Source of the DNA: Verrucomicrobiia bacterium
GTDB taxonomy: Bacteria > Verrucomicrobiota > Verrucomicrobiia > Limisphaerales > JAEYXS01
NCBI GenBank assembly: GCA_036405135.1
Contig: DASWYF010000034.1
Span: forward strand, 1-64,000
Reading direction: 5' to 3'
Length of the DNA: 64,000 bases
Shown here: positions 7,888 through 43,343 of the stretch, piece after piece
Position numbering within the stretch: the first letter of the stretch is position 1
Layout: each line of letters opens with the position of its first letter
Translations under genes and position numbers: made by a program
Notes under the pieces: generated by a model
Told to the model about the DNA's origin: nothing
Databases searched by the model: none
What the model saw: only the letters and a program-made list of their open reading frames with translations

Positions 7888-7901
7888 GGGGTGGTTTAGC
7901 C

Positions 7902-7933
7902 ACGGATTTACACAGATGGAACACAGAGCGGGC
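7902..7933 (+). repeat. solo copy of the CCACAGAT/ACACAGAT dispersed repeat
   Basis: The 3' flank of rpoN contains CCACGGATTTACACAGATGG, a diverged copy of the repeat that frames the GxxExxY gene at 40754-40799 and 41203-41235. No gene accompanies this copy, so it may be a remnant. Confidence 0.45.
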
Positions 7934-40434: not shown

Positions 40435-40646
40435 AGCCTGTCCTGAGCCATTCTGGAGCAAAGCACCAGAAACAGGTGATGGATAGCAGGCAATGTAAAG
40501 CGCCGGGAGGTTTGCGTCCCTCTCACGAACCAAATCTCATCAGCCATTTTATCCTCTGGTGTCTTTTATTTGAGTCAACGCGTGCTTTTCCCCTTTCCAA
40601 CTTTGAACTTGGCCCCTCCGCCCCTTTCCCCTACTTTCCGCCCACC

Positions 40647-40682
40647 ATGATCTGTGGCCTGACCACGACAACGACGATTTAG
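40647..40682 (+). CDS. threonine leader peptide of the thrS attenuator
   Basis: An 11-codon frame MICGLTTTTTI: five consecutive Thr codons (ACC ACG ACA ACG ACG) then Ile and a TAG. The stop lies at the base of the hairpin that follows. Known: stalling on such codon runs when charged tRNA-Thr is scarce controls thr operons by attenuation. No Shine-Dalgarno site is obvious, which is common in this genome. Confidence 0.7.
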   Translation: MICGLTTTTTI

Positions 40683-40740
40683 GCGTTTGGGACATCCCGA
40701 ACGCCAACGCCTCAACCTGCCCGGTTCGAGGCGTTTTTAT
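40682..40740 (+). promoter_or_regulatory. attenuator hairpins and terminator upstream of thrS
   Basis: Hairpin one pairs 40682-40691 with 40696-40705 (GGCGTTTGGG with CCCGAACGCC, one wobble). The terminator pairs 40706-40717 with 40723-40735 (AACGCCTCAACC with GGTTCGAGGCGTT, one bulge) and is followed by TTT. The segment AGGCGTT at 40681 could alternatively pair with AACGCCT at 40706, giving a mutually exclusive fold. This is the layout of amino-acid attenuators. The rest of the gap 40435-40646 holds nothing I can support. Confidence 0.72.
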
Positions 40741-40753
40741 TTGGAGAATCGAA

Positions 40754-40799
40754 GTTAAACCACAGATAAACACAGATGGACATAGATGGACATAGATAG
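40754..40799 (+). repeat. left inverted repeat of the GxxExxY cassette
   Basis: TTAAACCACAGATAAACACA at the start, then GATGGACATAGATGGACATAG. The inverse complement of 41203-41235 matches the first 27 bases of the CCACAGAT unit with about three mismatches. The start codon of the GxxExxY gene lies inside this repeat. Confidence 0.75.
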
Positions 40800-41184
40800 A
40801 AATCCTGACGGACGTCCAGAACCGCTCTACAAAGCGGAAACGCACGCCATTATCGGATTCTCCTTTGCCATCTTGAACGAGATCGGTCATGGCCTGAACG
40901 AGAAGCTGTATGAGAACGCCCTGACCGTGGAATTCCGCTTGAACAACATTCCCTACGATCAGCAGCGCAATTTCAAGGTAACCTACAAGAATCACGAAAT
41001 CGGCAAATTCATCCCCGACCTGATCGCCTATGATAAAATCATCGTGGACACCAAAGTCATCGACCGCATTACCGACCATGAGCGCGGCCAGATGCTCAAC
41101 TACCTGCGCATAACCAAACTCCGCGTCGGCCTCCTCCTAAATTTCAAGCACGCCCGCCTCGAATACGAACGACTACAGCTTTGA
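40786..41184 (+). CDS. GxxExxY protein (PD-(D/E)XK nuclease-like)
   Basis: 132 residues. The family signature is GLNEKLY (G-x-x-E-x-x-Y) near residue 39, followed by the nuclease-like core FIPDLIAYDKIIVDTKV (D...DxK). Known: the family belongs to the PD-(D/E)XK fold group, is frequent in Planctomycetes and Verrucomicrobia, and its role is not established. The gene is framed by inverted repeats and separates the Thr attenuator from thrS, so it looks like a mobile cassette. The start codon is provided by the left repeat. Confidence 0.85.
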   Translation: MDIDRNPDGRPEPLYKAETHAIIGFSFAILNEIGHGLNEKLYENALTVEFRLNNIPYDQQRNFKVTYKNHEIGKFIPDLIAYDKIIVDTKVIDRITDHERGQMLNYLRITKLRVGLLLNFKHARLEYERLQL

Positions 41185-41202
41185 GGCTCACGGACCGGAA
41201 AA

Positions 41203-41235
41203 TTATCTGTGTCCATCTGTGTCCATCTGTGGTTA
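41203..41235 (-). repeat. right inverted repeat of the GxxExxY cassette
   Basis: Reads TTATCTGTGTCCATCTGTGT then CCATCTGTGGTTA; its complement begins TAACCACAGATGGACACAGA, mirroring the left repeat. It lies 18 bases before thrS. The extended thrS reading frame from 41181 is just translation through this repeat. Confidence 0.75.
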
Positions 41236-41252
41236 AAAATCCCCCAGACTTT

Positions 41253-43343
41253 ATGCAAGACGAACGTAAGACTCTCGACGAACGCAACAAGATGTCCGAT
41301 CTGGAGCGCCTCCGGCACTCCTGCGCCCATGTGCTCGCCACCGCCATCCTGCGCCTCTGGCCGGATGCCCAGTTCGCCTACGGCCCGCCCGTCGAGAACG
41401 GCTTCTACTACGATGTCCTCCTCACCCACCGCATCACGCCGGAAGACTTTCCGGCCATCGAAGCGGAGATGAAAAAGGAGACGAAGGCGAACAACGTCTT
41501 CCAGAAGATCGTCGTCACCCGCGAGCAAGCCATCAAGGATGCCCAGAGCGGCCGCCTTGGTGCGCTCACCGAACGTGGCACCGTCAGCACCTTCAAGCTG
41601 GACCTGCTAAACAGCATCCCGGAAGGCGAAGCGATCTCCTATTACCAGAACGGCGACTTCATCGACCTCTGCGCCGGGCCGCACGTCATGCGCACGGGCA
41701 ACATCGGCGCGTTCAAGCTCACGAACGTGGCCAGCGCCTACTACAAGGGCGATGAGAAGAACCCGCAGCTCCAGCGCATCTACGGCACCGCCTTCAAGAA
41801 CAAGACGGAGATGGAAGCCTACTTCAACATGATTGAAGAGGCCAAGAAGCGCGACCATCGGAAGATCGGCCAGGAAATGGGCCTCTTCTCCATGGACCCG
41901 GACTTCACCGGCCCCGGCCTGCCCCTCTGGCTGCCCAAAGGCACCGCCATCGTGGAAGAACTGGAAAAGCTCGCGAAAGAAACCGAATTCGCCGCCGGCT
42001 ACGTGCGCGTAAAAACGCCGCATCTGGCCCGCGAGAAGATGTACAAGACGTCCGGCCATTTGCCATATTATGCGGAGAGCATGTTTCCGCCGATGGTGAT
42101 GGATGAGTTTTCCTCGAAGCGTAGAGAACTCGAGGCCAAAAAGAATGAAGCTGGTAAAGCTGTCTATGGTTGGGCTGGAAGCCAGATAACTGACGCAATG
42201 GCCAAGGAGGGAGAACCTAATGCGTTGATGGACCAGATTATTGCGGAACATCAGCACATGAACAAGCTGCCAGATAATGTTTCATCTTCATTAAACGATT
42301 TGCGTTCCTCCAATCGTGCATTGCGTGAGCTTCCTTTAGCTGAGACTTACTACCTCAAAGCGATGAACTGCCCGCATCACCATCGCGTGTTTGCGGCAGA
42401 ACCCAAGAGCTATCGCGATCTCCCCCTGCGCCTCGCGGAATACGGCACCTGCTATCGCTTCGAGCAGTCCGGTGAATTGTTCGGCCTCATGCGCGTTCGT
42501 TCCATGAACATGAACGATGCGCACATCTATTGCACCGAGGAACAGTTCGCCGACGAGTTCCGGGCGGTGAATGACATGTATCTGAAATACTTCAAGATCT
42601 TCGGTCTGGAGAAATATCAGATGCGTTTCAGCACGCACGATCCCAAACGCCTCGGCGAGAAGTTCGTCAACGAACCCGAGCTGTGGAAGAAGACGGAAGA
42701 CATGGTGCGCAAGGTGCTTATCGAGTCCGGCATCAACTTCGTGGAAGTGGCGAATGAAGCCGCCTTCTACGGCCCGAAGATCGACGTGCAAGTCTGGAGC
42801 GCCATCGGCCGCGAATTCACTATCGCCACGAACCAGGTGGATTTCGCCGTGCCCGCCAAGTTCGGCCTCACTTACAAAGACCGCGACAACACGAACAAGA
42901 CCCCGCTGTGCATCCATCGCGCCCCGTTGGGCACGCATGAGCGTTTCATCGGCTTCCTCATCGAGCATTACGCCGGCAACTTCCCGCTCTGGCTCGCACC
43001 CGATCAAGTCCGCGTCATCACCATCGGTGATGACGACAAACTCGTCGGCCACGCCAAAGCCATCGTGAACGAACTCCGCGGCAAGATGGTCCGTGCCGAA
43101 GGCGATTACGGCGCCGAACCCATCAAGGCCAAGATCCAAAACGCCGAGCACGCCAAGGTCCACACCATGCTCGTCCTCGGCACCCGCGAACTGGAAAACG
43201 ACAGCGTCGCCATCCGCCTCCACGGCAAAGGCAACGTCGGCACCAAGCCGACGAATGAGGCCATCGCGGATATCGTGGCCTCCATCACCGAGCGTCGCGC
43301 CAATCCGGTGCATACGGCTGCGCCTGCTCAGAAAGCTCAATAG
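41253..43343 (+). CDS. thrS: threonyl-tRNA synthetase with a 78-residue insertion
   Basis: 696 residues from the ATG at 41253; the frame upstream only covers the repeat. It lacks the N-terminal TGS domain and starts with the editing domain (HSCAHVLATAI). The catalytic core has MNCPHHH (zinc Cys/His), FRFEQSGELFG-type motif 2 (YRFEQSGELFGLMRVR) and IHRAPLGTHERFIGFLIEHY, then the anticodon domain. Between MFPPMVMDE and ETYYLKAMNCP, where other ThrRS have no gap, 78 residues (bases 42108-42341) are inserted in frame. Known role: charges tRNA-Thr. Confidence 0.95.
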   Translation: MQDERKTLDERNKMSDLERLRHSCAHVLATAILRLWPDAQFAYGPPVENGFYYDVLLTHRITPEDFPAIEAEMKKETKANNVFQKIVVTREQAIKDAQSGRLGALTERGTVSTFKLDLLNSIPEGEAISYYQNGDFIDLCAGPHVMRTGNIGAFKLTNVASAYYKGDEKNPQLQRIYGTAFKNKTEMEAYFNMIEEAKKRDHRKIGQEMGLFSMDPDFTGPGLPLWLPKGTAIVEELEKLAKETEFAAGYVRVKTPHLAREKMYKTSGHLPYYAESMFPPMVMDEFSSKRRELEAKKNEAGKAVYGWAGSQITDAMAKEGEPNALMDQIIAEHQHMNKLPDNVSSSLNDLRSSNRALRELPLAETYYLKAMNCPHHHRVFAAEPKSYRDLPLRLAEYGTCYRFEQSGELFGLMRVRSMNMNDAHIYCTEEQFADEFRAVNDMYLKYFKIFGLEKYQMRFSTHDPKRLGEKFVNEPELWKKTEDMVRKVLIESGINFVEVANEAAFYGPKIDVQVWSAIGREFTIATNQVDFAVPAKFGLTYKDRDNTNKTPLCIHRAPLGTHERFIGFLIEHYAGNFPLWLAPDQVRVITIGDDDKLVGHAKAIVNELRGKMVRAEGDYGAEPIKAKIQNAEHAKVHTMLVLGTRELENDSVAIRLHGKGNVGTKPTNEAIADIVASITERRANPVHTAAPAQKAQ
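42108..42341 (+). other. in-frame AT-richer insertion in thrS
   Basis: 234 bases coding for a helical, polar stretch (starting FSSKRRELEAKKNEAGKAVY, ending LRSSNRALRELPLA). By hand count its GC content is about 46%, clearly lower than the surrounding gene, and codon endings shift from C/G to A/T. Too short for an intein with known motifs. It probably forms a surface domain. Confidence 0.7.

Follow-up and report, generated by a model that had tools for sequence, protein, structure and literature searches.

Between a threonine attenuator and thrS, a small gene of the GxxExxY family is enclosed by inverted arrays of the 10-bp unit CACAGATnnA (positions 40754–41236 of the window, which is the whole analyzed stretch of 64,000 nucleotides from a Verrucomicrobiia bacterium). 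To our knowledge, GxxExxY proteins form a large orphan family over many phyla, and their role is not known. The locus raises the question of how the gene and the repeats around it are connected and whether they move together. A reading of this DNA from the sequence only had proposed a mobile unit of repeats and nuclease, inserted here and now co-transcribed with thrS under threonine control. Here, we propose that the cassette is the gene-bearing form of a REPtron-like repeat system, in which a PD-(D/E)XK nuclease recognizes and probably disperses its own arms, and we give this proposal a slightly better than even chance of being correct.

The features of the locus are collected in Table 1. The inverted repeats framing one GxxExxY gene were found as the sequence-only reading had described them, and so was the start codon in the repeat; the ATG lies inside the left arm, where units 3 and 4 meet. 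The right arm is separated from thrS by 16 bases. The Thr attenuator was borne out by the leader peptide, the hairpins, the terminator, and the fold of the RNA (−46.6 kcal/mol, z −5.28 versus shuffles), and no fewer than 14 genomes of the order keep it upstream of thrS, as judged by eye (window region 40640–40742). From the layout, the GxxExxY gene is probably co-transcribed with thrS via read-through of this attenuator. An Rfam scan of the cassette region matched no family, and the PADLOC models of known anti-phage defence systems gave 0 families. The window ThrS apparently has a variable insert, as the matches of its relatives break at approximately residues 288–358.

Table 1. Window coordinates of the cassette, its surroundings, and a solo array, with the arm unit of the sufB–sufC clade
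Feature	Position	Strand	Description
Solo array CCACGGATTTACACAGATGGAACACAG, gene-less	7901..7929	+	Resembles the CACGGAT/CACAGAT arms of the sufB–sufC GxxExxY gene of the same genome (L005)
Thr leader peptide MICGLTTTTTI*	40647..40682	+	From sequence; equivalent leaders and terminators before thrS in relatives
Alternative hairpins and intrinsic terminator of the attenuator	40683..40742 (terminator region 40706–40742)	+	RNA fold
Left (upstream) arm	40754..40797	+	4 units CACAGAT/CATAGAT, period 10, outer end TTAAACC
Left-arm array sequence CCACAGATaaACACAGATggACATAGATggACATAGAT	40760–40797		4 units, two of them CATAGAT, 3-base spacers
GxxExxY (PDDEXK_3) nuclease-like gene	40786..41184	+	132 aa; TIGR04256, PF13366
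Right (downstream) arm	41205..41236	-	3 units CACAGAT, period 10, outer end TTTAACC, inverted relative to the left arm
Right-arm array sequence CCACAGATGGACACAGATGGACACAGAT	41205–41232	-	3 units
thrS, threonine--tRNA ligase	41253..43343	+	TIGR00418, 579 bits
Arm unit of the sufB–sufC GxxExxY clade CACGGATTGAA

The solo repeat that had been reported near position 7902 is present, but it is more degenerate than described. A search with ACACAGATGGACACAGAT, allowing two mismatches at most, gave 55 matches in the 5.8-Mb genome versus 1 when the pattern was reversed as a control. By itself, the 8-mer CCACAGAT is barely enriched in the window (5 occurrences versus 2.1 expected; 4 of 100 shuffles reach 5), and the significance rests in the arrays, not in this 8-mer.

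The window protein is a member of TIGR04256 by the curated score (123.2 bits; cut-off 35), and PF13366 (PDDEXK_3; 116.3 bits, cut-off 22) is the sole domain detected in it. Its AF2 model (pLDDT 87.6) has a PD-(D/E)XK core. In the motif D78...D88-T-K90, the residues D78, D88, and K90 fit the predicted catalytic motif; D88 is Glu in most relatives, and the columns are invariant or near-invariant; the D..(D/E)xK residues are conserved. The best Foldseek match was the homing endonuclease I-Bth0305I (E 0.036, by itself not significant), and further PDB structures matched at Z 6–8, among them Hjc, XisH, and EcoRV, belong mainly to the PD-(D/E)XK superfamily. A PDB sequence search with the family profile gave no credible relative. 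The fold matches are middling; with the model and the motif residues, they place the window protein in the PD-(D/E)XK superfamily as a predicted nuclease. The gene is under purifying selection, with pN well below pS (pS being near saturation). Viral contigs contained two relatives only, and GxxExxY genes are therefore not mainly phage genes.

The same genome has five further TIGR04256 matches besides the window gene. Inverted arrays that differ from those of the window gene but have a similar period frame four of these genes (CCACGGAGnCACGGAG, AACAGGAGnnAACAGAGGGAACAGAG, GCCGCAAAAAGGCGCAAAA, and CCACGGATnnAACACGGA), and no framing array was found for the sixth, most divergent gene. One uniform repeat for the family, by which the unit had initially been defined, was ruled out; each GxxExxY lineage has its own unit, the other genes of this genome included. 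About 90 GxxExxY genes were collected from 58 genomes of the same order, and an arm score was defined as the local alignment of the upstream flank to the reverse-complemented downstream flank. At the same-order threshold of ≥16, inverted arms frame 78% of 83 GxxExxY genes versus 5.4% of 336 other ORFs on the same contigs. The arms match themselves best at a period of 8–11 bp, with a mode of 10. An independent scan of species genomes gave 80 loci, 76 of which were scored. The contig scans were seeded with a 4-sequence alignment; a broad 16-sequence alignment could not serve as seed. The 80 loci are titled as Chloroflexi, Bacteroidetes, Deltaproteobacteria, Ignavibacteria, Acidobacteria, Planctomycetes, candidate phyla, and one archaeon. 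A score of ≥20 was reached by 42 of the 76 loci versus 7.8% of mismatched flanks, a control that is conservative because it contains same-clade arms. The arm consensus common to loci across phyla is ATAGAACrCnGATGACrCnGAT.... The claim that repeats and gene form a unit thus extends to the family as a whole. At one locus (L127, G053:C357), two tandem GxxExxY genes of equal score have CGCGGAT-type arms around both.

The arm sequence follows the protein lineage. Among 66 same-order genes, arm similarity averages approximately 9 for pairs with protein identity below 40% and 21 above 70%, and it is still 19.1 above 70% when genes at homologous sites are excluded. A first covariation test with no orientation handling gave a rho of 0.07, and 50 of 999 permutations were as high. 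The test was redone with both orientations and then without same-site pairs; with homologous sites excluded, the pairs above and below 50% identity differ by 5.7 on average, the maximum in 999 permutations being 1.4. When ten arm classes were placed on a tree of the 66 domains, 15 changes were required, whereas 200 shuffles needed 40 on average and never fewer than 34. The tree has few columns and many open forks and therefore serves as an association test, not as a resolved history. Recognition of its own arms by the GxxExxY protein is the best account of the covariation, and we infer it because the unit covaries with the protein lineage at unrelated sites.

The gene-bearing cassettes appear to be long settled. 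Same-clade GxxExxY genes stand before thrS in three other families (G007, G027, and G035; loci L038, L039, and L040), and a single clade for the four thrS-site genes was not rejected (p-AU 0.54). The attenuator lies directly before thrS, with the site empty, in G013, G014, G015, and G024, and a gene-less pair of units (CACGAAG, CGAAGG, CGAAG, or CACAGAT) lies at the site in G004, G016, G008, and G012. thrS was not found in the congeners G001 and G002, and the comparison of the thrS site thus comes from outside the genus. The occurrence of the same gene at the same place in diverged relatives, which the sequence-only reading had itself named as counting against a mobile unit, is what we found for the thrS copy; together with the purifying selection, it speaks against a recent insertion only now under thrS control. 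GxxExxY genes also recur before valS, between sufB and sufC, and at several further junctions (the gene names valS, sufB, sufC, and cysD were assigned by reading translations). The downstream neighbour is shared with a GxxExxY gene of another genome by 15 genes and the upstream neighbour by 14; ten draws of 53 random ORFs gave none. The valS junction (L073, L077, L089, L092, and the pseudogene L271) and the sufC junction (L129 and L148) are occupied by different clades. Vertical inheritance followed by loss, homing, and a preference in insertion are all candidate reasons for such shared junctions.

The gene-less arrays behave differently. Exact matches of CACAGATNNACACAGAT number 48 in the genome of the window, 90 in G007, 37 in G050, and 36 in G035, versus 13 at most in each of the other 54 genomes and none for the control pattern. 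Each of the four genomes with at least 36 CACAGAT matches has a window-clade gene between CACAGAT arms; the one in G050 lies before valS and is a pseudogene with a frameshift. In G027, the arms of the thrS-site gene are CGCAGAT, and the matches number 11 for CGCAGAT and 0 for CACAGAT. High numbers of gene-less arrays occur only together with a gene, living or dead, that has the same unit, with some exceptions: arrays were found without a matching gene in G001 (13), G012 (8), and G025 (7), as were CGCGAAT arrays in G045 and G055, possibly because of gene loss or assembly gaps. Many arrays are inverted doublets with loops of approximately 20–160 bases, which vary within one genome, unlike those of freshly copied elements. 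The doublet L007 is cleanly absent in the congener G002 and present with a different loop in G001, the doublet L016 is absent in the congener G001, and neither congener has the solo array L022. The fourth site, L018, is occupied in the congeners by a doublet of a different unit type. Gene-less arrays are gained or lost within the genus, and which of the two took place at a given site would be a matter of interpretation. The proposed mobility would apply to the gene-less repeat copies rather than to the gene-bearing copy; the doublets look like the mobile part, and the thrS cassette looks like an old resident. No target-site duplication signal beyond the conserved outer ends was found in 48 cassettes, and none is visible at the empty-site junctions of the doublets in congeners, which are too diverged to define one.

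Several other arrangements were noted among the arrays. One CACAGAT doublet subfamily of G007 (L252–L269) lies inside a larger repeat of approximately 170 bp with the outer inverted ends CCTAAA..GCAGTTG. ACGAATT-type doublets are nested in or beside CACAGAT doublets (the L016 loop; L302/L303), and in L024 and L035 one unit is broken by the same CCGGTAGCACCGGTGGCAAA stretch, CCACAGA[CCGGTAGCACCGGTGGCAAA]CACAGAT. G036 has approximately 30 CGCAGATTAACGCAGAT-type matches, including several outward-facing pairs about 50 bp apart, unlike the cassettes. A DUF559-like ORF (L213:1448 onward, by reading) is framed by CCCTCACCCC-type inverted repeats, and the related CCCCTCACCCCGGCCCTCTCCC repeat sits in the L007 doublet loop and has many matches in G001/G002.

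Here, we outline how such a system might work. The GxxExxY protein would bind its own flanking inverted arrays, probably with one subunit per ~10-bp unit along one helix face; an oligomer on one face is suggested because the layout provides one unit per turn. The gene-bearing copies would be few and old residents at certain operon junctions (between attenuator and thrS, before valS, and between sufB and sufC), and the gene-less arrays of the cognate unit, single or as inverted doublets, would be the dispersed form. Doublets would reach further extragenic positions by being cut or copied, probably with the help of the nuclease and with no target-site duplication. Binding, cleavage, nuclease-driven dispersal, and expression are what we infer for this system.

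In REPtrons, RAYT (TnpAREP) nucleases are tied to cognate REP/REPIN sequences (PMC3116915, PMC8266576). The likeness lies in a nuclease gene that stands between its cognate extragenic repeats, in the gene-less dispersal of these repeats as inverted doublets, and in the coevolution of protein and repeat. In contrast, the GxxExxY enzyme is a predicted PD-(D/E)XK protein, whereas RAYT is an HUH Y1 transposase (IS200/IS605-like); the GxxExxY arms are direct iterons with a period of 8–12 bp, whereas REP is a palindrome with a GTAG/CGTC-type tag; and the loops of the GxxExxY doublets are not conserved. Since both the enzyme and the repeat architecture differ, the proposed working is REPtron-like, and the system is not a member of the REPtrons. 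The TIGR04256 and PF13366 models define the protein only, and the arms and gene-less arrays are outside the definition used. The predicted fold core is shared with PD-(D/E)XK homing endonucleases, Hjc resolvases, and XisH, but the cassette has no intron or Holliday junction-resolvase context. Arms and their dispersal are, as far as we know, not features of these families.

A small S23 four-helix-bundle ORF has been described in the 23S rRNA intervening sequence, a selfish element (PMC4990558). Stand-alone TIGR02436 genes (four-helix-bundle, S23-like) of the same order (L272–L301) likewise lie between inverted arrays, here with a period of 7 bp and units including CAGTGTT, GAGTTGA, CGGAGGT, and TATGAGT; 18 of 24 score ≥16. 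The GxxExxY cassette differs from the intervening sequence in its place between attenuator and thrS, not in rRNA, and in its protein and period. We know of no TIGR02436 protein described as a nuclease. Inverted arms therefore need no encoded nuclease, which is the main doubt about our proposal; either the TIGR02436 proteins, too, act on DNA through host enzymes that they recruit, or the encoded enzyme is not needed for dispersal.

This analogous layout also favors the strongest alternative, which we consider rather unlikely: the arms would be DNA or RNA-hairpin binding sites, GxxExxY an autoregulator or processing factor, and the scattered arrays its targets or decoys, spread passively by host recombination and replication errors. 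The position of gene-bearing cassettes within operons and the solo arrays that often end just before a start codon (L013 and L036) would suit such a role. However, the conserved catalytic residues would be needless for a pure binder, orthologous sites differ in having or lacking entire doublets, and the arrays are abundant only alongside cognate genes.

Less probable still is homing, in which the nuclease would cut a conserved empty operon junction (the thrS leader, valS, or sufB/sufC) and repair would copy the gene in, with the arms secondary. The shared junctions are compatible with a homing endonuclease gene, since one junction is occupied in several families and by different clades, and both the gene-less pairs of other units at thrS and the top Foldseek match point the same way. 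Vertical descent with loss also explains the shared junctions, however, and homing leaves unexplained the clade-specific arms, the gene-less dispersal, and the recurrence of the arms of one clade at unrelated sites. We see very little prospect for arms that are the ends of a miniature transposon moved in trans by an unrelated transposase, with GxxExxY as a passenger. The G007 doublets that are part of a longer repeat bounded by inverted ends of its own fit this scheme, but most doublets have only the arms in common, no target duplication signal was found among the cassettes, and a passenger would not predict the arm sequence as the protein clade does. A repeat that arose by chance or through base composition and is unrelated to the gene, to which only the weak 8-mer enrichment could appeal, was discarded on the control matches (55 versus 1) and the gene association (78% versus 5%).

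In the open-access literature searched, no earlier report of a GxxExxY-repeat system was found, and one may exist elsewhere. There, GxxExxY occurred in unrelated papers only, PDDEXK_3 in none, TIGR04256/PF13366 in passing mentions, and the array sequences in unrelated eukaryotic papers. More tentatively, and with greater doubt than for the REPtron-like proposal itself, there might be a general class of elements with one gene each, which encodes a small DNA-binding protein between inverted iteron arrays, the period being set by the family (~10 bp in GxxExxY and 7 bp in TIGR02436) and the unit by the lineage; the proteins would disperse gene-less copies of the arms in a way unlike any transposition or REP system described so far. 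If the members are cognate to their lineage-specific arms, the family would provide dozens of natural protein–repeat pairs, a ready-made recognition code. Under the same condition, it would also account for abundant, unexplained extragenic repeats of 10-bp period in environmental genomes and would constitute a second, independently evolved REPtron-like system.
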